This document shows, in pieces, positions 23,891-37,785 of a DNA stretch of 64,000 nucleotides. The notes under the pieces are model-generated. The model was given only the letters and a program-made list of their open reading frames with translations. It was not told the origin of the DNA and searched no databases. A program made the position numbers and the translations under genes. The number at the start of each line of letters is the position of its first letter. The stretch's first letter is position 1. Source of the DNA: Kaistia defluvii (lineage in GTDB: Bacteria > Pseudomonadota > Alphaproteobacteria > Rhizobiales > Kaistiaceae); the NCBI RefSeq assembly GCF_026343955.1, contig NZ_JAPKNI010000009.1:1-64000 (forward strand), written 5' to 3'.

Positions 23891-23975
23891 GCCCAGATGG
23901 CGGAATTGGTAGACGCGCACGGTTCAGGTCCGTGTGACGAAAGTCGTGGAGGTTCGAGTCCTCTTCTGGGCACCA
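23891..23975 (+). tRNA. tRNA-Leu (anticodon CAG)
   Basis: The 85-base class II tRNA has a 7-bp acceptor stem GCCCAGA/TCTGGGC, discriminator A and an encoded CCA (23973-23975). The anticodon stem-loop CACGG-TTCAGGT-CCGTG places CAG at 23925-23927. The long variable arm and TTCGAGTCC T-loop are present. It reads CUG leucine codons, which are abundant in this GC-rich genome. Confidence 0.97.
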
Positions 23976-23982
23976 ATTTCAC

Positions 23983-24027
23983 GCAAAAAGCCCCGTATTC
24001 CGAACAGGATGCGGGGCTTTTGCTTTT
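23983..24027 (+). terminator. Rho-independent terminator of tRNA-Leu
   Basis: GCAAAAAGCCCCG (23983-23995) pairs with CGGGGCTTTTGC, followed by TTTTT. The remaining bases to 24269 hold no recognisable gene. Confidence 0.85.
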
Positions 24028-24269
24028 TGGGATCCTCGCGGCTGCCCACCTAGTCGCTGGCGCCGTTGAGCCATGGCCGCCAAGCAGCGCCGCATTTCGA
24101 ACCGCTGCGGATAAGCCGTTAGACGAGCTTAGAACGGACTCCCCCAGCACCGCCGAGATGCAGGAGGTTGCATCCACGCCGAGCCCCCTCTCTGACCCAG
24201 CATTGCGAGCGCGAGCGCGAGCAGGGCCGTCAGGGCCCCAGTTCAGCAACCAGGAAGCCCGGCCGCCGC

Positions 24270-25205
24270 TCAATGCGCATCTTGCGCCAGCGCATCAAGG
24301 AGATTGGCGACGGCGCGCACGGTCGAGCGCTCGACCGAGGCGTCGGTGAAGCCGCCGATATGGCTGGTCAGCACCACCTTCGGATGATCGAGCAGCGGCG
24401 AGGGAGCCGGCGGCTCGGTCTCGAACACGTCGGTCGCGTAGCAGGCCACTTGTCCGGAATCGAACGCCCGGAGCAGCGCCTCGGCATCGACCAGACCGGC
24501 GCGCGCCGTGTTGACCAGCACCGTCGCCGGCTTCATCGCGGCGATCCGCTCGGCCGTGAGCAGCGGCCGGCCGTCCTCAGGCAGCGGCGCGTGCAGGCTA
24601 ACTGCGTCGACGCCGGTCATCGCCCCGTCGAGATCGACGCGGGAAAAATTCGAATGGACGATGCGGTCGGCATTGGCGAAGGGATCGTATCCGCGCACCT
24701 TGGCGCCGAGGTCGAGGCAAAGCTGTGCCATCGTCGCGCCGATCGCGCCGAGGCCGACAATGCCGATGGTCGCATCGCACATCTCGCGGCCGATCTGGCG
24801 CGGCCATTCACCCTTGCGCATGCCTTCATGCGTCCAGACGATCTGGCGCAGCCCCGCCAGCGTCAAGGCGAGCGCCAGCTCGGCGACGCCGCGCGCATTG
24901 GTGCCCTCGGCCCGGCGCAGCTCGATGCCGCGATCCTCGATCGCGCGCAGCGGTAGATTGTCGACGCCGGTGCCATTGCGGCTAATGACCCGCAACCGGT
25001 CGGCGGCCTGCAGCACGCGCTCGCTCACCGGCTCGACGCCGGCAAGCCAGCCGACGCAGCCGGGCAGTGCCGCCATCAGCGTCGCCTCGTCGGGGGTGGC
25101 ACCCGGCGCCGGCATGGCCAGGCTGTAGCCGGCCGCCTCGAGCCTGGCGAGCGCCGGATGGCCGCCCTTCGACAGCGAGCGCGGCGTGATCAGGATCCGG
25201 TTCAT
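24270..25205 (-). CDS. D-2-hydroxyacid dehydrogenase (NAD-dependent)
   Basis: The 311-residue protein of the D-isomer 2-hydroxyacid dehydrogenase family (phosphoglycerate-dehydrogenase-like) has the nucleotide-binding motif GLGAIG at 151-156 and NGTGVDNLP. Catalytic elements are Arg in VNTARAGLVD, Glu in DVFETEPP and His in LTSHIGGFT. It is the last gene of a four-gene leftward operon, two bases behind the shikimate-dehydrogenase-like gene. It probably oxidises a sugar-acid intermediate of the pathway encoded here. ATG start at 25205. Confidence 0.88.
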   Translation of the reverse strand: MNRILITPRSLSKGGHPALARLEAAGYSLAMPAPGATPDEATLMAALPGCVGWLAGVEPVSERVLQAADRLRVISRNGTGVDNLPLRAIEDRGIELRRAEGTNARGVAELALALTLAGLRQIVWTHEGMRKGEWPRQIGREMCDATIGIVGLGAIGATMAQLCLDLGAKVRGYDPFANADRIVHSNFSRVDLDGAMTGVDAVSLHAPLPEDGRPLLTAERIAAMKPATVLVNTARAGLVDAEALLRAFDSGQVACYATDVFETEPPAPSPLLDHPKVVLTSHIGGFTDASVERSTVRAVANLLDALAQDAH

Positions 25206-25207
25206 CG

Positions 25208-26158
25208 TCAGCGCCCCGTCGCCCGCGCGGCGATGGCGGCTATGGCGTCGAACTCGGGACCGGAGACCGGGATCTCGATGTCGAACACTTCGGCGATCAC
25301 CTGGGTCCAGCCATGGATGAAATAGGTCCATCCATCCTCGACCTGCAGCTGCCGCTCCTTCTCCTGCGCGTGCGCCTGGTCGAGGAAGACGAGATCGCCG
25401 CGATAGTTGAGCTCCCAGACCACGGCCCCCTCGGGAAACACGCCGTTGTCGGTGAGCGGCGAGCCAGGCGCGTCCTTGCCGAGGCCGGTGGCGTTGACGA
25501 CGAGGCTGCCCGGCTTCAGGCCGGCCAGGATCGCGTCATTGTCCTCCGGCCGGGGCGCCAGCCGATATTCGACCGGGATGTCGGTACCGATGGCACGATG
25601 GATCGCCTCGATATGGTCGAGGCGCGCCTGCGAGCGGTTCGAGACGACGATGCGCGAGGGACGGTCGGCGCCGCGCGAGGGCTGCATCAAGTGCCAGGTC
25701 AGCGCAATGGTCGAGCCGCCGGCCCCCATCGAGAACAACTCTGCGCCGGTATCGGCGAAATGGTTCGGCAAGAGGAAACCGTCGATCGAGAGGCCCGACG
25801 AGATCGGGTCCTTGGCATGGCAGATCAGCCGGCCGCCGCGCTTCGAGAGGCAGCTCGTCTCCTCCATCAGCAGCGCATGCGGGTCGATCTCGTCGAACAT
25901 GTCACGGCAGGCGGCGAAGAGATCGAGCTTGTGCGTGGTCACCAGCGCGCCGAGCGAGAGCGGATCGTCCCTCAGGAAGGCGACCGCCTCGCGATAACGC
26001 TCCGGCTCGTCATGCGGCACGAAGTCGATGCCCTGGATCGCGACGTCGCCGAGGCCGAGATGGCGCGCCCATTCCGGAAACACCTTCATGATCGAGGATT
26101 TCGCGGTGGTGACGCCGATGAAATAGAAGGTCGGTCGCGTCGCGGGCTGGTAGCTCAT
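25208..26158 (-). CDS. Shikimate dehydrogenase-family protein, divergent (substrate unknown)
   Basis: The 316-residue protein has an AroE-like two-domain layout. Catalytic Lys77 in LVTTHK and Asp117 in CHAKDPISSG correspond to the Lys-Asp pair of shikimate dehydrogenase. A nucleotide-binding loop (SMGAGGSTIALTWHL) and NRSQARLDHI follow. The usual shikimate-carboxylate SxSP site is replaced (GVTTAKSSIMKVFPEW), so shikimate is an unlikely substrate. The gene sits in a sugar catabolic operon, not with aro genes. The ATG overlaps the aldolase stop by four bases (ATGA). I infer a polyol or sugar-acid dehydrogenase. Confidence 0.75.
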   Translation of the reverse strand: MSYQPATRPTFYFIGVTTAKSSIMKVFPEWARHLGLGDVAIQGIDFVPHDEPERYREAVAFLRDDPLSLGALVTTHKLDLFAACRDMFDEIDPHALLMEETSCLSKRGGRLICHAKDPISSGLSIDGFLLPNHFADTGAELFSMGAGGSTIALTWHLMQPSRGADRPSRIVVSNRSQARLDHIEAIHRAIGTDIPVEYRLAPRPEDNDAILAGLKPGSLVVNATGLGKDAPGSPLTDNGVFPEGAVVWELNYRGDLVFLDQAHAQEKERQLQVEDGWTYFIHGWTQVIAEVFDIEIPVSGPEFDAIAAIAARATGR

Positions 26159-26802
26159 GAGTTTCCCCGGATTTCGGCGATGCGCGCCACGGCGGCGCGC
26201 GCATTGGCGGTGATCTTCGGCCAGTTGCCGGCGGCAATGTCGGCGCGCGTGGCGATCCACGTGCCGCCGACGGCGGCGACTTCCGGAATGGCGAGCCAGT
26301 CCGCCAGATTGGCCATGCTGACGCCGCCGGTCGGATTGAAGCGGATGCCGGTGTGGAGATAGGGGGCTGCGATGTTCTTCAGCATGGACGGCCCCCCTGC
26401 TGGCATGGCCGGGAAGAACTTCACCATCCGGCAGCCGGCGCGAAGGGCTGCCTGGAGGTCGGTCGGCGTCATGATGCCGGGCGCGATAGGAAGGCCGCGT
26501 TTGGCGGCATGGGCGAGCACGCCGGCGTCGAGGCCGGGCGACAGGGCGAAGCGGGCGCCGGCATCGGCCGCCTGGTCGAGCTGCGCCTCGTCGAGCACCG
26601 TGCCGGCGCCGACCAGAAGCTCCGGCCGCGCCCTGGCGATCGCCTCGATCGTGGCGCGCGCGGCGGCAGTGCGGAAGGTGATCTCGGCGACCGGCAGGCC
26701 GCCCTCGATCAGCGCGTCGGCAAGCGGCAGAGCGGCGGCCGGATCGTCGAGCGCGATCACCGGCACCACCGCATGGGCGGAAAGGGCATCGAAGATGGAC
26801 AT
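26155..26802 (-). CDS. KDPG/KHG-type aldolase (Eda family)
   Basis: The 215-residue class I aldolase has the Schiff-base Lys128 in GCRMVKFFPA and the general acid/base Glu40 in VAEITFRT, with GAGTVL, PG and GGV phosphate-loop motifs (RFNPTGGVSMANLADWL). Family members cleave 2-keto-3-deoxy-phosphosugar acids to pyruvate plus an aldehyde. The ATG at 26802 is used, since the frame extends to 26886 without similarity. It is second in the leftward operon, five bases behind the isomerase and overlapping the next gene by four. No 6-phosphogluconate dehydratase is nearby, so ordinary Entner-Doudoroff use is not implied. Confidence 0.9.
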   Translation of the reverse strand: MSIFDALSAHAVVPVIALDDPAAALPLADALIEGGLPVAEITFRTAAARATIEAIARARPELLVGAGTVLDEAQLDQAADAGARFALSPGLDAGVLAHAAKRGLPIAPGIMTPTDLQAALRAGCRMVKFFPAMPAGGPSMLKNIAAPYLHTGIRFNPTGGVSMANLADWLAIPEVAAVGGTWIATRADIAAGNWPKITANARAAVARIAEIRGNS

Positions 26803-26807
26803 GGCAC

Positions 26808-27428
26808 TCAGTCCTGCGTGGCGAGAATGGCGTCGATCTCGGCTTTTGTGCGCGGCCGATAGTCGGCGTTCAGCACGGCTTTCCATGAGGCGCCATCGGC
26901 GACGATGCGCGTCGCCATGCCGCCGGAGCGGGCGATCAGCCCGTAATCCTGGCCGGAATCGCTCGGGTAGCAGAAGCTCATGACGAGGGGCGAAGCGCCC
27001 GTATTGACCGAGCGGTGGATCCAGAGCGGCGGCACATAGACCATCACGCGCGGTCCGATCTCGAGGATCTTCGTCTCGCCCTCCGGCGATTCGAGCAGCA
27101 TGAGCCCCTCGCCCGCCTCGCCATAATACGTCTCGGGGCGGTTGCCGATCGCGTGGATATGGCCGCGCGTGACGAAGAACTCGTCGCCGATCCTGCCCGG
27201 CTCCATGAAGGTGGTGCCGAAGATCAGATCGCCGCGCGCGGCGGCGGGGCGCACTTCGTGGACGGTGTAGACGACGCGGTCGCCCCCGCGGGCAACGGAG
27301 TCCGCGAACGCGGCTTTGTCGGCGTAGATCCCGTCGAGATCGGCGAGGCGCTTCTGGTAGCGGCCGGTGGCGGCGGATAGCACGCCACTGGCCGGATCGA
27401 TGCGGTGGGATGTGGGGGCAATGGCCAT
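26808..27428 (-). CDS. Cupin-type glucose-6-phosphate isomerase (archaeal type)
   Basis: The 206-residue cupin of the PGI family known from Pyrococcus and some bacteria is unrelated to the usual Pgi. The metal site is visible: His90 and His92 in TRGHIHAI, Glu99 in NRPETYYGE and His138 in PPLWIHRSVN. EPGRIGDEFFVTRGH is diagnostic. It interconverts aldose and ketose phosphates; the true substrate here may be another hexose phosphate. It heads the leftward operon. The ATG at 27428 has GGAG six bases upstream. An annotation as KduI would be wrong at the motif level. Confidence 0.85.
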   Translation of the reverse strand: MAIAPTSHRIDPASGVLSAATGRYQKRLADLDGIYADKAAFADSVARGGDRVVYTVHEVRPAAARGDLIFGTTFMEPGRIGDEFFVTRGHIHAIGNRPETYYGEAGEGLMLLESPEGETKILEIGPRVMVYVPPLWIHRSVNTGASPLVMSFCYPSDSGQDYGLIARSGGMATRIVADGASWKAVLNADYRPRTKAEIDAILATQD

Positions 27429-27710
27429 AAGGGTCTCCAAATCGGTAGCAACACTACTCAATCGGTATCGCAATGCAATTGATTTGGATGCAGCTCGATT
27501 AATTTCGGATGGTTTCGATACAAATTGATCTTGATACCCGAAAATTATGTAGTATCAGTACGTAGCCGGCGCGGATGGTGTCGGCGCTTGCCGGGCGCAG
27601 GCGTCCTCGCCCAACCACGTCGGCCTCGCTCGTCGGGCTACCGAATTTCGGGAAACAAAGCGGCAGATGGCAAAGAGCCAAGCCGCGCTCACCGCTCTGG
27701 GAGGAGCTTC
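27429..27710. promoter_or_regulatory. Divergent promoter/operator region of the sugar locus
   Basis: This 282-base gap is clearly AT-richer than its surroundings. AATCGGTA occurs twice as a direct repeat exactly 20 bases apart (27440 and 27460), the second extended to AATCGGTATCG. An inverted near-copy, CGATACAAATT, lies at 27516-27526, followed by TTGATACC at 27531. These look like operator half-sites serving both operons. Candidate rightward -35 boxes are TTGATC (27525) and TTGATA (27531), with TATCAG at 27553. The regulator is probably the RpiR protein encoded at 31486, by inference only. Confidence 0.5.
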
Positions 27711-28772
27711 ATGACCCACACCATCGCCAAGTCGGCCCCGGGCCTGCGCGCATCGTTGCTGGCGCTCGCTTCCGCCGCCGCCCTGTTGACGGCAGCCGGC
27801 GGCGCCCTCGCCGAGGACGTTGCACCGATTGCCGGCCGCCCCGAGCCCGTCGCCAACGAGGCCGGCACCAAGGCCAAGATCGCGATCATCGGCTTTGCCA
27901 ATAATCCCTACTGGGTCGCGGTCCAGAAGGGCGCCGAGACCGCCAATGACGTGCTCAAGTCGCGTGGCGGCGAAGTGCGCTGGATCGTCGGCGGCGCCAA
28001 TATCGACGTGCCGACCGTCAACCAGGCGATCAATGCCGCCGCCACCCAGGGGTATAACGGCATCGGCTTCTTCATCGCCGGCGAAGGCAATTGCGCGCTG
28101 GTCAAGAAGCTCGTCGACGAGAAGAAGATCGCGATGGGCGCCTACAACACCCTGTTCCCCTGCGTTGAAGAGGCCGGTGGCGTCATCAACTATGCCCAGG
28201 ACCAGGTCACGGCCGGCAAGAACGCTGCCGCGGAACTGATCAAGGCGGTCGGCGACAAGGAAGGCAAGGTCGGCGTCATCGTCAGCCAGTTCACGGCGCC
28301 GGGCTCCGAGCAGCGCCGCAAGGGCTTCGTCGAGGGCTTGCAGGGCTCGAAGCTGACCGTCGTCAATGACGGCATCGAGGCCAAGGACTCGGCCGGCGCC
28401 ACTTTCGCCGCCGCCAAGGACTTCCTGACCTCCACGCCGAACCTCGTCGCGCTCTATGCGACGGCCGGCGGACCGTTCGGCGCGGCCCAGGCCGTCAAGG
28501 CGGCCGGCAAGCAGGATGCCGTCAAGGTGATCGGCTACGACTTCACCAAGGAGAATGTCGCCGCGATCCGGGATGGCAGCATGTTTGGCGTCACCGGCCA
28601 GGACGAGTTCGGCCAAGGCTACAATGTAGCGATCGCGCTGTTCAACAACATCGTCGCGCAGCAGAAGGCCGAACCGGTTCTGCAGCCGGCCGTCAGCCTG
28701 TTCATGACCAAGGAAACGGTGGACCAGCTCGACCCGGACAAGCTCCCGCTCGGCACCGTTCCGAAGCTCTGA
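27711..28772 (+). CDS. Sugar ABC transporter substrate-binding protein
   Basis: The 353-residue periplasmic protein has a signal peptide (hydrophobic about 15-34, cleavage near GALAE). A ribose/galactose-type periplasmic binding fold follows (IAIIGFANNPYWVAVQKGAE, GGANIDVPTVNQAINAAATQ, VIGYDFTKENVAAIRDG). About 20 residues rich in Pro/Ala separate signal and fold. It delivers the inducing sugar to the permease encoded two genes on. GAGGAG lies six bases before the ATG at 27711. The ligand cannot be read from sequence. Confidence 0.92.
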   Translation: MTHTIAKSAPGLRASLLALASAAALLTAAGGALAEDVAPIAGRPEPVANEAGTKAKIAIIGFANNPYWVAVQKGAETANDVLKSRGGEVRWIVGGANIDVPTVNQAINAAATQGYNGIGFFIAGEGNCALVKKLVDEKKIAMGAYNTLFPCVEEAGGVINYAQDQVTAGKNAAAELIKAVGDKEGKVGVIVSQFTAPGSEQRRKGFVEGLQGSKLTVVNDGIEAKDSAGATFAAAKDFLTSTPNLVALYATAGGPFGAAQAVKAAGKQDAVKVIGYDFTKENVAAIRDGSMFGVTGQDEFGQGYNVAIALFNNIVAQQKAEPVLQPAVSLFMTKETVDQLDPDKLPLGTVPKL

Positions 28773-28793
28773 GCGAAAAGACTAGAGTTCGTC

Positions 28794-30383
28794 ATGCAGG
28801 ACCGGGTTGAACGTATGTCCATCGAAGATGAAATCGCCCTCGAGGTCGTCTCCGTCGACAAACGCTTCGGCTCGGTCCATGCGCTTTCGAATGTCAGCAT
28901 GCGGTTTCGCCGTGGCAGGGTCACGGCCCTGCTCGGCGAGAACGGCGCCGGCAAGTCGACGCTGATCCGCGTCTGCTCGGGCGTCCACCAGCCGGACTCG
29001 GGCGAGGTTCTCGTCTCGGGCAAGGCGGAGCGGATGTCCGGATCTCTGGCTGCCAAGCGGATGGGCATCGCGGTGGTGCAGCAGGAGCCGCAGCTCGTCA
29101 GCCAGATGACGGTTGCTGAAAACATCTTCCTGGCCCGTCTTGGCTCGCGGGCGGGCACCGGCCTGCATCATCGCACCGGATTGGTCGGGGAAGCGGAGAC
29201 GCTGCTCGCGGGTCTCGGCCTCGACAAGGAGCTCCCCGATCTCGGTGGCCGCTGCGCCGGGCTTTCGGCGGCCGAACGCCAGCTTGTCGAGATCGCCCGG
29301 GCGCTTGCCGCCGACCCGCACGTCCTGTTCCTCGACGAGCCCAATTCCAGCCTGACCCGCAAGGAGACGGACCGCCTGTTCGACATCGTCCGCCGCCTGC
29401 GCGATCGCGGCACGGCCGTTGTGCTCGTCAGCCATCGTCTTGGCGAGGTCTACGAAATCTCCGACGAGGTCATCGTCATGCGCGACGGCCGCAAGGTGGG
29501 CGAAGGATCGGTCGACGCGCTGCCGAAGCAGCAGGCCATCCAGTTGATGGCCGGCGAGCGCCTGAAGGCGGCGCTCGATCTCGCCGAGAGCGCCACACCG
29601 AAGGCGTCGCCCGCCGACGCCGCGCCCGTTCTTTCGGTGCGCGACGCTTCGGGGCTCGCCTTTTCCAATGTCTCCTTCGATATCCAGGCGGGCGAGATCG
29701 TCGGCATGGCCGGGCTCGTCGGCTCCGGCCGAACCGAGATCATCCGCGCCATCATCGGCGCCGACCCGCTCTTTGGCGGCGACGTCCGCCTCAACGGAAA
29801 GTCCGTGCGCTTCGGCTCCCCCCGCTCGGCGCTGCGCGGCGGCATCGCTTTCATCACCGAGGAACGGCGCACCTCGGTCTTCTACGGCCACAGCATCAGC
29901 TTCAACCTGACGTCGAACGTGCTGGAGCGGTTCGGCCACTTCGGCTTTTTCAGCGAACGCAAGCGGCGCGCCTTCGCGCAGGAGAGCGCGAACGAGATCG
30001 GCGTGAAGGCCGACAATGTCGATGTCGGCATCCGCACGCTTTCCGGCGGCAACCAGCAGAAGGTGCTGCTCGCCCGGGCGCTCGCTTCCAATCCGTCGCT
30101 GCTCATCCTCGACGAACCGACCCGCGGCGTCGACGTGCGCACCAAGGCGGACATGTATCGCCAGATCCGCACCCTCGCGCATGAAAAGGGACTGGCGGTG
30201 TGGTTCGTCTCCTCCGAACTCGACGAGATCCTCCAGCTGGCCGACCGCATCGTGGTGGTGCGCGGCGGCGAGGTCGTCGACAGCCTCGCCCGGGGACCGG
30301 AGGCGGCCCGGGTCGTCGCATCGGCGCTGGGCGAGAAGATCGAGGACGCCGCGACCACCGTTCTCACATCGGGCATGGCCTGA
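28794..30383 (+). CDS. Sugar ABC transporter ATPase (two nucleotide-binding domains)
   Basis: The 529-residue RbsA/XylG-type protein carries two fused ABC domains. Domain 1 has Walker A GENGAGKST, a signature reduced to LSAAERQLVEIAR and Walker B VLFLDEPNSSL. Domain 2 has a degenerate Walker A (GLVGSGRTE), the intact signature LSGGNQQKV and Walker B LLILDEPTRGVDV. This asymmetry is normal for the family. The start is at ATG 28794; a second ATG at 28815 is also possible. It lies 21 bases behind the binding protein and is followed directly by the permease. Confidence 0.93.
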   Translation: MQDRVERMSIEDEIALEVVSVDKRFGSVHALSNVSMRFRRGRVTALLGENGAGKSTLIRVCSGVHQPDSGEVLVSGKAERMSGSLAAKRMGIAVVQQEPQLVSQMTVAENIFLARLGSRAGTGLHHRTGLVGEAETLLAGLGLDKELPDLGGRCAGLSAAERQLVEIARALAADPHVLFLDEPNSSLTRKETDRLFDIVRRLRDRGTAVVLVSHRLGEVYEISDEVIVMRDGRKVGEGSVDALPKQQAIQLMAGERLKAALDLAESATPKASPADAAPVLSVRDASGLAFSNVSFDIQAGEIVGMAGLVGSGRTEIIRAIIGADPLFGGDVRLNGKSVRFGSPRSALRGGIAFITEERRTSVFYGHSISFNLTSNVLERFGHFGFFSERKRRAFAQESANEIGVKADNVDVGIRTLSGGNQQKVLLARALASNPSLLILDEPTRGVDVRTKADMYRQIRTLAHEKGLAVWFVSSELDEILQLADRIVVVRGGEVVDSLARGPEAARVVASALGEKIEDAATTVLTSGMA

Positions 30384-30384
30384 C

Positions 30385-31458
30385 ATGAGCGCCGCGCCCA
30401 AGGAGCCCGCACGCAGAGGCGGCCCCGAAACCATGATGAACAAGGGTAATAGGATGAGTATCGCCAGCCTGAAGCGTCTGCCTCTGCTCAGGGGCCAGGA
30501 GGCCGGGCTGATCGGCGTGATCCTCGGCCTTTCGATCGCCTTCTCCTTCGTCAATCCGAGCTTCCTGACGACGGACAATCTGCGCAATGTTCTGGTCGCG
30601 GTGGCCGTGGTCGGCATCATGTCGATCGGCCAGTGCTTCGTCATCATCGCCCGCGAGATCGATCTTTCCGTTGGCTCGGTGATGGGTCTCAGCGGGCTCT
30701 GCGGCGCCTGGCTGATGGCGGCCGGCCTCAATCCGTGGCTCGCCATCGTGCTGGCGATCGGCGTCGGCGCCACCGCCGGCCTGGTCACGGGCCTGATCGT
30801 GGTGGTGTTCCGCGTCAATTCCTTCATCGCGACGCTCGGCATGCTTTCGGTCGCGCGCGGCCTGACCCAGGTGATTTCCGGCGGCCTGCCGATCATGGTC
30901 GACCCGTCCGTGATGTTCATCGGCCAGGGCACGTTCTTCGACATCCCCGTCCAGGTGCTGATCTTCGTCGGCCTCGGCATCATCTGCCAGTTCATCCTGA
31001 CCCGCAGCGTGGTCGGCCAGCGCATCGTCGCCGTCGGCGACAATGACGAGGCGGCGCGCCTTTCCGGCATCCCGATCAACACGACGCGCATCGCCGTGTT
31101 CGTCGCCAGCGGCGCGCTCGCCGCCATTGCCGGCATCGTCTACACCACGCAGGTCAGCGTGGCGGAGGCCCAGGCCGGCACCGGGCTCGAGCTCGACGTG
31201 ATCGCGGCCGTCGTCATCGGCGGCGCCAGCCTCTCCGGCGGGCGCGGGTCGATCCTCGGCGCGATGCTGGGCGCCTATCTGCTCGGCGCGCTGCGCAACG
31301 CCTTCATCCTGCTGGAACTCTCGCCCTTCCTGCAGCAGATGAGCGTGGGCATGGTCATCGTTCTCGCCGCCATCTTCGACCAATTCCGGCAGGGCTCTTT
31401 CCGGCATGCGAACGTCATGCCATCGTTCCTGCACATTTTCCGCTCCCGCACGCGGTAG
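30385..31458 (+). CDS. Sugar ABC transporter permease
   Basis: The 357-residue integral membrane protein of the BPD_transp_2 (RbsC-like) family has about eight to ten helices. The family segment AREIDLSVGSVMGLSG and the coupling-region AVIGGASLSGGRGSILGAMLGAYLLG are present. The ATG at 30385 comes just after the ATPase stop. Starts at 30433, 30436 and 30454 would remove a hydrophilic leader (AAPKEPARRGGPETMM) and are equally possible. It completes a three-gene ribose-type importer. Confidence 0.92.
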   Translation: MSAAPKEPARRGGPETMMNKGNRMSIASLKRLPLLRGQEAGLIGVILGLSIAFSFVNPSFLTTDNLRNVLVAVAVVGIMSIGQCFVIIAREIDLSVGSVMGLSGLCGAWLMAAGLNPWLAIVLAIGVGATAGLVTGLIVVVFRVNSFIATLGMLSVARGLTQVISGGLPIMVDPSVMFIGQGTFFDIPVQVLIFVGLGIICQFILTRSVVGQRIVAVGDNDEAARLSGIPINTTRIAVFVASGALAAIAGIVYTTQVSVAEAQAGTGLELDVIAAVVIGGASLSGGRGSILGAMLGAYLLGALRNAFILLELSPFLQQMSVGMVIVLAAIFDQFRQGSFRHANVMPSFLHIFRSRTR

Positions 31459-31485
31459 CGCCGGCCGGATCGGCTCAGGGATCAA

Positions 31486-32376
31486 ATGACGATGCAAACT
31501 CACGTCTCCGCCTTTGTGGGCGGGACCGGCAACATCCTCGAAGTTGCCCGTGCTCTGCGCGATGAACTGAGGAAATCCGACCGCAAGGTCTGCGATGCGA
31601 TCATCAGCGATCCGCGTCGCATCCTGTCCTCGACCGTGGCGGAGACGGCGCAGCTTGCCGGCGTCAGCCAGCCGACCGTGATCCGCTTCTGCAACGCGAT
31701 CGGCTGCGACGGCTTCCAGGATTTCAAGCTTCGCCTGGCGCAGAGTCTGGCGCTCGGCGTGCCGGCGACCCATTCGGTGATCACCGATGCCGACAGCCCG
31801 AACGAAGTCGCGCGCAAGATCTTCGACTACACGATGACCAGCCTCGACTGGGCCCGCAACCGCCTCGACTCGGCGGCGCTGGTCCGTGCCGTGGAAGCGC
31901 TGGTGCTGGCGCCGCGCATCGAGTTTTTCGGCTTCGGCGCGTCGGGCATCGTCGCCATGGACGCCCAGCAAAAGTTCCCGATGTTCGGCGTTCCCTGCGG
32001 CGCCGAGATCGACTCGCACCAGCAGGTGATGGTCGCCTCGTTGCTGAAGCCCGGCGACGTCGCCGTCGCAATCTCCAATACCGGCACGACCCGCTCGACC
32101 GTCGAGGTGGCCAAGCTTGCGCGCGAGAACGGCGCCACCGTGATCGGCATAACCGGCAATGAGGGCCCTCTCGCCGACGCCTGCGACATCGTCCTGCTGA
32201 CCGAAACGCTCGAAAACACCAACATCTATACCCCGACCATCTCCCGCATCGCCGCCCTTGTCGTCGTCGATATCCTGTCGACGGCCGTGGCGCTGCGGCG
32301 TGGCGAGGCGCATGTCGAAAGCTTCAAGCGGATGAAGAAGACCCTGAGCCAGATGCGATCGACTGCCCGGATCTGA
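31486..32376 (+). CDS. RpiR/MurR family transcriptional regulator
   Basis: The 296-residue regulator has an N-terminal helix-turn-helix domain (about 1-95, STVAETAQLAGVSQPTVIRF) and a C-terminal SIS phosphosugar-binding domain (about 120-270, VVAISNTGTTRSTVEVAKLA, GATVIGITGNEGPLADACD). It probably senses a phosphorylated intermediate made by the kinase of this locus and controls the divergent promoters at 27429-27710. AGGG precedes the ATG. Whether it represses or activates cannot be told. Confidence 0.9.
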   Translation: MTMQTHVSAFVGGTGNILEVARALRDELRKSDRKVCDAIISDPRRILSSTVAETAQLAGVSQPTVIRFCNAIGCDGFQDFKLRLAQSLALGVPATHSVITDADSPNEVARKIFDYTMTSLDWARNRLDSAALVRAVEALVLAPRIEFFGFGASGIVAMDAQQKFPMFGVPCGAEIDSHQQVMVASLLKPGDVAVAISNTGTTRSTVEVAKLARENGATVIGITGNEGPLADACDIVLLTETLENTNIYTPTISRIAALVVVDILSTAVALRRGEAHVESFKRMKKTLSQMRSTARI

Positions 32377-32471
32377 CGGCAACGACCTTCCGGGACGACC
32401 GGCGCGCCGTGGCATCCCATGCCCGGCCTGCCGAGCGAAACCACAACCCCTTAAAAAGCGGCGATCCCATC

Positions 32472-33206
32472 ATGTCCTCTACCCCGACGAGCCTCAGCGC
32501 CACCGACCTCGCGCAGAGGATCGATATCAGCGCGGTGCAGGCCTTTCACACCGAGGCGGATGTCCGCGCGCTCGCAGCCCTCGCCATGGAGAACGGCTTC
32601 ATCGCGGCGCATGCGCTGCCGAACTTCGTGCCGCTGCTCCGTTCGCTCATCCCACAGGGAGGCGCCACGCTGGTCGGCGGGCCGATCGGCTTCCCGTCGG
32701 GCGGCCACATGACCGCGATCAAGGCGGCAGAGGCTGCCGCGCTGCGCGAGGCCGGCGCCGACGAACTCGACATGATGCTGAATGTCGGCCGGCTCAAGTC
32801 GGGCGACCTCAACTATGTCCGCGACGAGATCGCCGCGGTGCTCGAAGCAGTCGCGCCCGTTCCGCTGAAGGTCATCCTCGAGCTTCACCACCTGACCGAT
32901 GCCGAGATCGAAACGGCCGCCGACATCGTCGCATCAAGCGGCGCGGCCTTCGTCAAGACCGGCACGGGCTGGACGCCGGCCGCGGCGACGCTGCCGCGCA
33001 TTCGACGCATCGCCGCCGTGGTGGCGGGACGCGCCGGCATCAAGGCCTCGGGCGGCATCCGCGATCTTCCGACCATCGCCGAGATGGTGGCGATCGGCGT
33101 CACCCGCTTCGGCATCAACACGGCCTCGGCCATCGAACTGGTGCGCGGCATCGACGCCCTGCCAGGCCAGCGGCTGGCGATCGTCCCCGTCGGCGAGAAG
33201 GCCTGA
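32472..33206 (+). CDS. DeoC-type (deoxyribose-phosphate) aldolase
   Basis: The 244-residue class I aldolase of the DeoC/LacD superfamily has Schiff-base Lys162 in AFVKTGTGW, Asp100 in DELDMMLNVGRLKSGD and the second lysine in GIKASGGIRD, so the DERA catalytic set is complete. DERA cleaves 2-deoxyribose 5-phosphate to acetaldehyde and glyceraldehyde 3-phosphate. Next to an FGGY kinase and away from nucleoside genes, it may act on another phosphorylated ketose. The ATG at 32472 begins the conserved part; the ribosome site is weak. The kinase gene follows after three bases. Confidence 0.88.
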   Translation: MSSTPTSLSATDLAQRIDISAVQAFHTEADVRALAALAMENGFIAAHALPNFVPLLRSLIPQGGATLVGGPIGFPSGGHMTAIKAAEAAALREAGADELDMMLNVGRLKSGDLNYVRDEIAAVLEAVAPVPLKVILELHHLTDAEIETAADIVASSGAAFVKTGTGWTPAAATLPRIRRIAAVVAGRAGIKASGGIRDLPTIAEMVAIGVTRFGINTASAIELVRGIDALPGQRLAIVPVGEKA

Positions 33207-33209
33207 TCC

Positions 33210-34724
33210 ATGGCCCGCACGGTCCTCGCACTCGATCTCGGCACGGGCGGCGTCAAGTCGGCGCTCTACGACGCCAGCGGTGTCTGTCTTGCCGAGCGGG
33301 TGCAGACCTATCGCACCTATTTTCCGGCGCCCGGCCTGCACGAGCAGGACCTTGGCGAATGGTGGGATGCGGTCTCGACCAGCATCCGCGCGCTTCTCGG
33401 CGCCGAGGGTGTGGATCGCTCGTCAGTGGGCGCGGTCAGCATCTCCGGGCACAGCCTCGGCTGCATTCCGCTCGGAGACGACGATCAGCCGCTGATGCAG
33501 CGCGTGCCGATCTGGTCGGATGCGCGCGCCGATATCGAGGCCGAAGCCTTCTTCCGCCGCTTCGACTATGAGCGCTGGTACGGCCTGACCGGCAACGGCT
33601 TTCCCGCCCCGCTCTATCCGATCTTCAAGATCCTCTGGCTGAAGGCGAACCATCCCGAGATCTTCGCGCGAACCCGTTCGATCGCCGGCAGCAAGGATTT
33701 CATCAACCTGCGCCTCTGCGGCCGCCATGCGACGGACCCGTCCTACGCGTCGGGCAGCGGCGCCTATGACCTGCATGCCCGAGCCTTCTCGGCCGAGATC
33801 CTCGATGCCGCCGGCGTCGACCGAGACCTCTTCCCGACAATCGTGCCCTCGACCGCAATTCTCGGCACGATCCTGCCCGGGATCGCCGCCGAGCTTGGCC
33901 TGCCGGCCGATCTCGTGGTCGTGGCCGGCGGCGTCGACAACAGCTGCATGGCGCTCGGCGCGCGCACCTTCTCCGAAGGCGATTTCTACGGCTCGATGGG
34001 CTCCTCGAGCTGGCTGACGATCTCGTCCGCGAAGCCGGTGCTCGACAGCCGCGTCCGCCCCTTCGCCTTCGCCCATGTCGTGCCGGACCAGATCATCTCG
34101 GCCACCTCGATCTTCTCGTCCGGCACCAGCCTTGCCTTCGTCAAGGACATGCTGATGCCGGGTGAAGCCGTCGGCTATGACGAGGTGTTCACGCTGGCCG
34201 CCAGCGCGCCCTTCGGCGCCAACGGCCTTCTGTTCGTGCCGACACTCGGGGGAGGGACTAGTTTCGAGGGCGGGCAGGATGTTCGCGGCGCATTCGTCGG
34301 CCTCGATCTCGGCCATGGCCGGGCCGACATGCTGCGCGCCACGATCGAAGGCATCGCGCTGGGGCTGCGGGTCGCGCTCGACGAATTGCGACGCCTTGCC
34401 GGCGTCAGTCGCAAGATGACCATCGTCGGCGGCGGCGCGCGCAGCGCGGTGATGCGGCAGGTGTTGGCCGACATGCTGGATTGCACGATCGTGAAGACCT
34501 CGATCGACCAGCAATCCGCCTCGCTCGGCGCCGCGGCGCTGGCGATGGTGGCGACCGGAAGCTGGTCCGACATGAGCCCGCTTATCCGACTGCACGTGGT
34601 CGAGGACCGCCATGAGCCGGACGCCAGAACGGCGGATCTGGCCGGACGAATGGTGCAGGCCTATCGGGCGGCCGCCGAGGCCCAGCGGGCCCTGGCCCCC
34701 CTGCTCGCCGGTCTCCGCGCCTGA
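33210..34724 (+). CDS. FGGY-family carbohydrate kinase (xylulokinase-like)
   Basis: The 504-residue kinase has an N-terminal phosphate-1 motif VLALDLGTGGVKSALYD, active-site region IWSDARADIEA and the FGGY C-terminal motif region GGGARSAVMRQVLADMLDC, then QQSASLGAAALA. It is closest in layout to xylulokinase, but FGGY members act on many ketoses, polyols and lactones. As last gene of the rightward operon it presumably phosphorylates the imported sugar before aldol cleavage by the preceding DeoC-type enzyme. No gene follows in frame; a decayed region starts immediately. Confidence 0.9.
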   Translation: MARTVLALDLGTGGVKSALYDASGVCLAERVQTYRTYFPAPGLHEQDLGEWWDAVSTSIRALLGAEGVDRSSVGAVSISGHSLGCIPLGDDDQPLMQRVPIWSDARADIEAEAFFRRFDYERWYGLTGNGFPAPLYPIFKILWLKANHPEIFARTRSIAGSKDFINLRLCGRHATDPSYASGSGAYDLHARAFSAEILDAAGVDRDLFPTIVPSTAILGTILPGIAAELGLPADLVVVAGGVDNSCMALGARTFSEGDFYGSMGSSSWLTISSAKPVLDSRVRPFAFAHVVPDQIISATSIFSSGTSLAFVKDMLMPGEAVGYDEVFTLAASAPFGANGLLFVPTLGGGTSFEGGQDVRGAFVGLDLGHGRADMLRATIEGIALGLRVALDELRRLAGVSRKMTIVGGGARSAVMRQVLADMLDCTIVKTSIDQQSASLGAAALAMVATGSWSDMSPLIRLHVVEDRHEPDARTADLAGRMVQAYRAAAEAQRALAPLLAGLRA

Positions 34725-36759: not shown

Positions 36760-37785
36760 TCAAGCCGGAGTCGGGGCGTCGGCGCGCAGCAGGCCGGCCA
36801 TCTTCAGATCGGACCAGAGCGAGGCCGGCACCGGCCGGTCGAAGGCGGCGCGGTTGCGCCTCGTCTCCTCGGCCGAGACCGAGCCCATGACCAGCGAGGC
36901 GACCGCGGGGTGGCCGAGCGGGAACTTCAGCGCCGCGTCGGCAAGCGTCACGCCATGCGCCTCGCACACCTTCTGGATCGCCGCCACCCGCTCCAGGATC
37001 TCCGGCGGGGCGTCGCGGTAATTATACTTGGCGCCGGGCACGGGGCCGGTAGCGAGGATGCCGGAATTGAACACGCCGCCCAGCATCATGCCGATGCCCT
37101 TCTCCTGCGCCAGCGGCAGGAAGCTGTCGAGCGCCGGCTGCTCCAGCAGGGAGTAGCGGCCGGCCAGCAGCATGGCGTCGAAATCGCCGGCGCGGGCGAA
37201 GCGCTCGCACATGTCCGCCTCGTTCAGGCCGACGCCGATCGCGTCGATCACCTTCTCCGAGCGCAACTGCTCCAGCGCCTTGTAGGCGCCCTCCATCGCG
37301 GCCTTGAAATGGCCCTCGACCGCCGCCGCGCCATGCGAATAGACGTCGACGTCATGGATCAGCACGATCTCGATCCGGTCGACGCCGAGGCGGATCAGCG
37401 ACTGCTCGAGCGAGCGCATGGCGCCGTCATAGGAATAGTCGAGCCGGGCGGGATGCGGCTGGCCGCCAGCGAAGTTCGGCGGCTGGGTGTTGCCATCGGC
37501 GGGCTGGTGCAGCGGGTCCATCCAGCGACCGACCTTGGTCGACAGCACGAAGGACTTGCGCGGCACGCCGCGCAGCACGGTGCCGATGCGGTGCTCGGCC
37601 AGGCCGTGGCCGTAGAAGGGCGAGGTGTCGTAGAGCGTGACGCCGGCCTCGACGGCCGCCGCGACGGCGCCGCGGGCGGTTTCGTCATCCAACCGGTGAT
37701 AGAGGTCGCCCAGCGGGGCGGAGCCGAAGCCGAGGGTCGTGACCGGAATCCCCGTGCGTCCGAGCGGGCGCGTCTCAAGTGCCAT
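36760..37785 (-). CDS. Aldo/keto reductase (D-threo-aldose 1-dehydrogenase-like)
   Basis: The 341-residue TIM-barrel oxidoreductase has an N-terminal LGRTGIPVTTLGFGSAPLGDLY, catalytic Asp/Tyr in TLYDTSPFYGHGLAEHRIG, Lys in VLSTKVGRW and His in IVLIHDVDVYSHG. The group includes L-fucose/D-threo-aldose dehydrogenases and pyridoxal 4-dehydrogenase, acting with NAD(P). Substrate is not resolved. A truncated copy of its C-terminus lies 500 bases beyond its 3' end. ATG start at 37785. Confidence 0.88.
   Translation of the reverse strand: MALETRPLGRTGIPVTTLGFGSAPLGDLYHRLDDETARGAVAAAVEAGVTLYDTSPFYGHGLAEHRIGTVLRGVPRKSFVLSTKVGRWMDPLHQPADGNTQPPNFAGGQPHPARLDYSYDGAMRSLEQSLIRLGVDRIEIVLIHDVDVYSHGAAAVEGHFKAAMEGAYKALEQLRSEKVIDAIGVGLNEADMCERFARAGDFDAMLLAGRYSLLEQPALDSFLPLAQEKGIGMMLGGVFNSGILATGPVPGAKYNYRDAPPEILERVAAIQKVCEAHGVTLADAALKFPLGHPAVASLVMGSVSAEETRRNRAAFDRPVPASLWSDLKMAGLLRADAPTPA

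Follow-up and report, generated by a model that had tools for sequence, protein, structure and literature searches.

A recurrent sugar locus built around an AroE-fold oxidoreductase in Kaistia defluvii and its relatives

The window analysed here, a stretch of 64,000 nucleotides of Kaistia defluvii (contig NZ_JAPKNI010000009.1, positions 1 to 64,000), carries two divergent operons (leftward 24270-27428, rightward 27711-34724) centred on a gene set that recurs in other bacterial genomes. The leftward operon encodes a cupin-type phosphoglucose isomerase (cPGI), an aldolase of the 2-keto-3-deoxy-6-phosphogluconate (KDPG) type (Eda), an AroE-fold oxidoreductase without a Pfam family (SDHl) and a D-2-hydroxyacid dehydrogenase (2HADH); the rightward one encodes a ribose-type ATP-binding cassette (ABC) importer, an RpiR/SIS regulator, a DeoC-type aldolase and an FGGY sugar kinase. 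In most related loci the set includes a further gene, for a UlaG-like metallo-hydrolase (MBL), of which the window keeps only a remnant. Tentatively, and with somewhat less than an even chance of being right, we read the locus as two operons that together serve the breakdown of an imported ketose.

Sugar catabolic operons in which a KDPG-type aldolase acts last are of a known kind; the enzyme set, with its AroE-superfamily member, is not described in the literature that we searched, and the chemistry of the route is probably not described there either. The sequence-only reading of the window had been unable to match the genes to a described pathway, and our search likewise found no paper describing the set, with most subscription papers, in which such a description may exist, lying outside it.

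Recurrence across genomes

The survey covered 397 Hyphomicrobiales genomes, together with a scan of the named genomes of a one-genome-per-species collection. SDHl was found in 19 of the 397 genomes and the cPGI family (PF06560) in 21. Co-occurrence was counted on the 18 genomes with a close-type cPGI (>170 bits), which leaves out two genomes with a different type (G015 and G322) and one with a weak match only (G336); all 18 also encoded SDHl, and the conserved co-occurrence that had been proposed earlier as a check was thus found in 18 of the 397 genomes. In G015, the nineteenth genome with SDHl, the protein is divergent (61%), no member of the 14 other partner families tested lies beside its gene (locus L040), and the cPGI, encoded elsewhere, is of a different type. 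Linkage of cPGI and SDHl is common, not universal: the genes are linked in most genomes, and the separation that the sequence-only reading had named as a possible objection occurs in 4 of the 18, where they lie far apart or on separate contigs. In the window's own genus, 4 of 11 listed genomes encode SDHl, which makes it an accessory trait.

The pattern scan of the named genomes gave 294 SDHl relatives, probably an undercount, and the best 80 of these were used, so that the sample leans towards close relatives. Judged by title, the best 80 of 294 are mostly Alphaproteobacteria, with Caballeronia, Burkholderia, Paraburkholderia, Propionivibrio and one Mycobacterium-labelled contig besides; the closest locus named to genus among them lies on a Bosea-labelled metagenome contig (L042, 87% identity). 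A locus titled Mycobacterium sp. KBS0706 (L115) has the same tested gene set as an Inquilinus locus (L112), and the record may be mislabelled.

Altogether 105 SDHl loci were tabulated, some of them in duplicate; 14 were set aside for having less than 7 kb of flanking sequence on one side, and the remaining 91 were reduced by dereplication at 90% identity to 51 loci, the window included, each with at least 7 kb on either side. Partner presence was counted from tblastn; the open reading frame caller had mis-resolved overlapping frames in several loci. The 51 loci contained cPGI in 48 cases, MBL in 47, either FGGY type in 47, RpiR in 46, 2HADH in 39, Eda in 34, DeoC in 6 and a GlcD-like oxidase in 5. 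Eda is tied to 2HADH, which is present in 33 of the 34 Eda loci (p 2.7e-6), and most GlcD-like oxidases (4 of 5) occur in loci that lack 2HADH (p 0.009). Chance clustering is ruled out by the co-occurrence together with the repeated gene order across loci.

Importers of three or more kinds occur in the 51 loci; the binding-protein type of the window is present in 2, a 4RY9-like type in 26 and a sorbitol-like type in 13. Among solved structures, PDB entry 4RY9 stands closest to the binding protein that is common in the relatives (E 1.5e-109). It was reportedly solved with D-talitol; no ligand is assigned here, and the binding protein of the window is of another type. GldA-type dehydrogenases are present in 14 of the 51 loci and short-chain dehydrogenases/reductases are frequent, and the substrate of the relatives is probably often a hexitol that is first oxidised to a ketose. 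In the window, no gene of either of these two types was called between 17001 and 41000, which suggests that a ketose itself is probably imported; an aldo/keto reductase gene is present there (36760-37785, minus strand; PF00248, 152.6 bits), 2 kb beyond the FGGY gene, and its product could belong to the same pathway as a dehydrogenase of sugars or aldehydes.

Cupin isomerases were also seen in other surroundings. Of the four genomes in which cPGI and SDHl are separated, the cPGI neighbourhood was read in two (L162 in G121 and L163 in G050); in both, a close-type cPGI stands apart from the SDHl operon, with a 4RY9-like importer, GldA and its own FGGY kinase. A second, shorter cupin isomerase type is encoded at about 7960-8523 of L161 and about 7951-8511 of L164; in L164 it adjoins genes of the CoA-transferase family III and AMP-binding acyl-CoA ligase types, an acyl-CoA context in which an isomerase is odd.

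The AroE-fold oxidoreductase SDHl

Judged by its sequence, SDHl resembles shikimate dehydrogenase and is probably not one itself. The AroE fold spans the full length of the protein, which scores 33.9 bits against the shikimate dehydrogenase model (cut-off 413) and matches no Pfam family to E 0.01; the Pfam AroE model gave no match to E 1 in 43 SDHl members. In these 43 sequences K79 and D119 are invariant and fall on the HK and TD motifs in the alignment with 1nvt, the positions of the catalytic Lys-Asp pair of AroE. Ser104 and Lys118 are invariant as well, and stand where AroE has Asn and Thr, residues that contact shikimate. SDHl thus differs from the shikimate and quinate dehydrogenases AroE and YdiB at both of these positions as well as in its family score and in the missing Pfam match, and ordinary shikimate or quinate metabolism is ruled out by the low scores, the changed ligand-contact positions and the gene context.

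Another comparison is with 5-ketofructose reductase (7cok/7col; PMC7954740), which shares the AroE fold; SDHl is probably of the NADP type as well, and a sugar substrate is plausible. The profile match is weak (E 0.0062), no better for 7cok than for other AroE-fold enzymes, and SDHl, in contrast to the reductase, sits in a kinase/isomerase operon, a setting that points to a phosphorylated substrate. The SDHl encoded on a Shinella zoogloeoides plasmid (L123) is more divergent (57.8%), and the annotation of its locus lists two sugar phosphate isomerase/epimerase genes, an inositol monophosphatase family gene and a galactitol-1-phosphate 5-dehydrogenase.

A UlaG-like hydrolase lost from the window

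The enzyme set given by the sequence-only reading lacked one member, MBL, which is absent from the window and present in the great majority of the dereplicated loci. It is a distant relative of the L-ascorbate-6-phosphate lactonase UlaG, and in four near relatives (L023, L024, L025 and L041; SDHl 87-92%) its gene follows 2HADH. In the window, homology to these four breaks off at about 24250, after some nine codons of the gene, leaving a remnant at 24254-24280; the operon has thus lost one of its most conserved members. The break adjoins a tRNA-Leu(cag) gene, and the stretch between the tRNA gene and the remnant had no blastn match in the four relatives compared; the region 23891-24280 looks as at an excision or integration scar. 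An assembly error is conceivable but improbable, as the break lies in the interior of a 181-kb contig. Three other dereplicated loci lack MBL, namely L029 (a DeoC locus), L040 and L112.

A palindrome upstream of cPGI

Exact gapped palindromes upstream of cPGI were first listed without a preset pattern, and TGTAGT-N3-ACTACA was among the commonest (6 of 89 regions). The pattern TGTARTNNNAYTACA was set after this listing and in view of a HexR-type consensus; the scan with it was therefore not blind. It is matched at 11 or 12 of its 12 positions in 46 of the 89 cPGI upstream regions, as compared with 1 of 1780 shuffles, and in 29 of the 48 dereplicated regions, as compared with 15 of 960 stretches taken at random from these loci; some of the random stretches may overlap real sites.

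The pattern has the same form as the RccR sites TGTAGTTTTACTACT and TGTAGTAAAACTACA given in PMC5489143, and both RccR and HexR respond to KDPG according to PMC5489143 and PMC5902321; the published HexR site of Pseudomonas, however, is TTGT-N7/8-ACAA. The RpiR protein of the window falls just under the cut-off of the HexR model (Table 1). The comparison supports, and does not prove, a KDPG-like intermediate.

The DeoC-FGGY module

DeoC and the FGGY type of the window always occur together, in the same 13 of the 105 tabulated loci and the same 6 of the 51 dereplicated ones, and DeoC shows no tie to Eda (p 0.65). Relatives of DeoC were found in nine Hyphomicrobiales genomes, four of which have no SDHl match; in these four, the DeoC relatives (48-50% identity) stand with genes for RpiR, an ABC importer and an FGGY kinase that is closer in sequence to the other of the two types. 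From these observations, and from the four genomes with cPGI apart from SDHl, two modules can be told apart, an oxidative one (cPGI, SDHl, MBL, 2HADH, Eda) and a kinase-aldolase one (FGGY, DeoC). The earlier proposal that two aldolases imply one compound split by two routes is possible and not shown; the two aldolases fall in different modules. The separate FGGY/RpiR/DeoC/ABC loci are L156-L159 (G370, G310, G243 and G282), and an aldo/keto reductase gene is also present in L156 and L157.

In an alignment with 1j2w, the two active-site lysines of DeoC (the Schiff-base lysine and a second one) and an Asp are conserved in all 17 rows, one locus being represented by two of them. The phosphate loop reads GINT in the 13 rows from SDHl loci and GMS or GIS in the other 4, the window having GINTAS where 1j2w has a GTSSG-type loop, and the motif around the cysteine of 2-deoxyribose-5-phosphate aldolase (DERA) is changed. 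The window protein thus shares with 2-deoxyribose-5-phosphate aldolase a TIGR00126 score over the cut-off, both lysines and the Asp, and differs from it in the loop and the cysteine motif; with the phosphate loop altered, deoxyribose salvage by DeoC alone is unlikely.

The same loop bears on a route for a 3-deoxy or 2-deoxy sugar, in which a deoxy-ketose would be turned into KDPG itself by phosphorylation, isomerisation and oxidation and then cleaved by Eda, and DeoC would act on a 2-deoxy aldose phosphate, no dehydratase being needed. Such a route would explain why the locus has no ILVD/EDD dehydratase, and would suit the KDPG-type regulator and a DeoC over its family cut-off; the loop, altered from that of the solved deoxyribose-phosphate aldolase, speaks against it, and neither the sorbitol-type transporters nor the GldA-type dehydrogenases of the relatives suggest a deoxy sugar. 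We consider it very unlikely.

Autoinducer-2 processing was considered as well, since the Lsr system (LsrK, LsrF) likewise combines an FGGY kinase, a DeoC/LacD-type aldolase (PF01791) and a ribose-type ABC importer. The kinase of the window scores 156.5 bits against the LsrK cut-off of 528, which rules this assignment out; the regulator of the locus is, unlike that of the Lsr system, of the RpiR type, and LsrG was not searched for.

A proposed route and its rivals

According to the favoured ketose reading, the ABC importer would take up a ketose, the FGGY kinase would add a terminal phosphate to give a ketohexose-6-phosphate, and cPGI would convert this to an aldohexose-6-phosphate. SDHl would then oxidise the aldohexose-6-phosphate, probably with NADP+ and most likely to a 6-phospho-lactone, which the UlaG-like MBL would open; with MBL lost in the window, another lactonase or spontaneous hydrolysis must serve there, or the route is impaired. 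2HADH would oxidise the D-2-hydroxyacid to a 2-keto acid phosphate, which Eda would split into glyceraldehyde-3-phosphate and a C3 keto acid. The substrate of Eda may be a 3-deoxy acid, giving pyruvate, or a non-deoxy acid, giving hydroxypyruvate, and in the latter case no dehydratase is needed. RpiR would act through the TGTAGT palindrome in response to a KDPG-like intermediate, and DeoC with its partner FGGY would form a second, kinase-aldolase module joined to the oxidative one. The earlier statement that the locus has no sugar-1-dehydrogenase was premature, as SDHl followed by a lactonase-like MBL could fill this step.

The early steps and the last one are ordinary uses of their families, and the steps of SDHl and MBL are deduced from fold, context and distant kin. 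Gene content and order, co-occurrence, folds, aligned catalytic residues, the palindrome and the loss of MBL are observed; every substrate, the reaction order, the cofactor and the effector are what we infer. The boldest form of the scheme, in which SDHl defines a new family of NADP-dependent sugar-phosphate dehydrogenases in the AroE superfamily and works within an undescribed, dehydratase-free oxidative route where Eda cleaves a non-deoxy 2-keto acid phosphate, is in our judgement doubtful. Were it true, the stereochemistry at C2-C4 would be erased, so that many rare hexuloses and hexitols could be channelled through a single core by swapping only the importer, the polyol dehydrogenase and the kinase, an exchange that the gene content of the loci suggests.

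Several observations weigh against the favoured reading. The activities of its enzymes are predicted ones, and a non-deoxy substrate for Eda would be without tested precedent. By analogy with shikimate and 5-ketofructose chemistry, SDHl could oxidise a ring carbon rather than C1. Several SDHl loci (among them L027, L032, L034, L112 and L115) have neither 2HADH nor Eda, so the oxidation and cleavage assigned to these enzymes are not universal steps. The best solved match of MBL is the isothiocyanate hydrolase 6brm (E 2.1e-9), with UlaG next (1.6e-8), and its score against the curated UlaG model is 43.9 bits (cut-off 306), which makes the label of lactonase weak; elsewhere in the window genome the best match to MBL has 32% identity (E 4.8e-4). 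As for the palindrome, 19 of the 48 dereplicated upstream regions score 10 or less for TGTARTNNNAYTACA, and the copy in the window is imperfect, reaching 10 of 12, a score attained by 42 of the 1780 shuffles.

If SDHl acts on a secondary alcohol (C3 or C5) of a sugar phosphate, the product would be a keto-sugar phosphate broken down by MBL and the aldolases, the simplest case being a redox epimerase. This is in our view unlikely, as the UlaG-like hydrolase in 47 of the 51 loci together with 2HADH in 39 is not readily explained by it.

A comparison with the Entner-Doudoroff pathway raises a further alternative. The locus shares with the lower branch of that pathway and its HexR/RccR control a KDPG-type aldolase, a HexR-like RpiR and an RccR-type palindrome upstream; in place of Zwf and Pgl it has an AroE-fold dehydrogenase and, in the relatives, the UlaG-like hydrolase, and it differs in having an added 2HADH and no ILVD/EDD dehydratase. 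The 4.9-Mb host genome has seven ILVD_EDD matches, all on other contigs and none in the locus, which bears out, for this type of dehydratase, the earlier observation of a locus without one; the search covered this dehydratase family alone. A canonical phosphoglucose isomerase and three further KDPG-aldolase homologues are encoded in the genome as well, so the locus holds extra copies of two central enzyme functions without an ILVD/EDD-family dehydratase, and a classical Entner-Doudoroff pathway within the locus is ruled out by the lack of this enzyme.

A parallel upper Entner-Doudoroff branch would be a different matter: cPGI would convert fructose-6-phosphate to glucose-6-phosphate, SDHl and MBL would be an unrelated glucose-6-phosphate dehydrogenase and 6-phosphogluconolactonase, Edd would come from elsewhere in the genome to work with the local Eda, and the substrate would be an ordinary ketohexose or hexitol. 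The membership of cPGI in the glucose-6-phosphate isomerase family, the KDPG-type regulator and the palindrome fit this branch, as do the seven ILVD_EDD genes, one of which (C1:932757) lies about 3 kb from an Eda gene (C1:936518), and it accounts for the loci without 2HADH and Eda. It leaves unexplained 2HADH, its GlcD-like counterpart and the tight pairing of Eda with 2HADH, and would make the local Eda redundant and add to a canonical isomerase already present. We consider this branch unlikely; the data do not decide among the favoured scheme and its rivals.

If the ketose reading is true, the 294 SDHl-encoding stretches of the pattern scan, many of them in rhizobia and other plant and soil bacteria, belong to a hidden sugar pathway, masked by misleading annotations as shikimate dehydrogenase, phosphoglycerate dehydrogenase and glucose-6-phosphate isomerase. 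It would also provide functions for an AroE-fold family without a Pfam entry and for a UlaG-like hydrolase, and would account for the cupin isomerase beside the normal one in the window genome.

Layout of the locus

Gene calls and spacings were verified by translation and families were assigned by hidden Markov model (HMM) profiles (Table 1). The gene families named by the sequence-only reading and the tight spacing of the leftward operon were borne out: cPGI and Eda are separated by 5 bp, Eda and SDHl overlap by 4 bp, and SDHl and 2HADH are 2 bp apart. The shared control region stands too, while its AT-richness is limited to the cPGI-proximal half, with a GC content of 0.417 at 27420-27539 and 0.483 at 27480-27599 and values of 0.60-0.76 in the other windows of 27000-28199. 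In cPGI, the GHIH...E...H metal-site motifs are conserved in an alignment with solved phosphoglucose isomerases.

Table 1. Features of the divergent sugar locus and its left border in the window.
Feature	Position	Strand	Evidence or remark
tRNA-Leu(cag), bordering the MBL truncation	23891..23975	+	
Short frame opening with the first ~nine codons of the MBL (UlaG-like) gene	24230..24280	-	homology to relatives stops at ~24250
2HADH, D-2-hydroxyacid dehydrogenase (phosphoglycerate-dehydrogenase-like)	24270..25205	-	HMM; PF02826 163.4 bits
SDHl, AroE-fold oxidoreductase without Pfam family	25208..26158	-	K79 and D119 invariant
Eda, KDPG/KHG aldolase	26155..26802	-	PF01081 201.9 bits; TIGR01182 232.8 (cut-off 156.05)
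cPGI, cupin-type phosphoglucose isomerase	26808..27428	-	PF06560 173.9 bits (cut-off 20.7)
Shared divergent control region, 282 bp	27429..27710	.	AT-rich in cPGI-proximal half
Putative RccR-type palindrome, 10/12 positions of TGTARTNNNAYTACA	27548..27562	.	motif scan; RccR site as in PMC5489143
Sugar-binding protein, Peripla_BP_4, own type, not 4RY9-like	27711..28772	+	
Ribose-type ABC importer ATPase	28794..30383	+	
Ribose-type ABC importer permease	30385..31458	+	
RpiR/SIS regulator, HexR-like	31486..32376	+	SIS 71.9 bits; HexR model NF008451 284.7 (cut-off 296)
DeoC-type class I aldolase, divergent; lysines conserved and phosphate loop altered	32472..33206	+	TIGR00126 172 (cut-off 117.3)
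FGGY sugar kinase, xylulokinase-like	33210..34724	+	FGGY_N 174.8 bits; xylulokinase-like 312.7 (cut-off 380.25)

Among the relatives, loci L027, L032 and L034, which are of the same kind as L080 and L093, carry beyond RpiR, according to scans of L093 and L034, an inositol-monophosphatase-family gene, a calcineurin-like phosphoesterase gene and a UgpB-like importer, a gene content that suggests a phosphodiester substrate for this branch.

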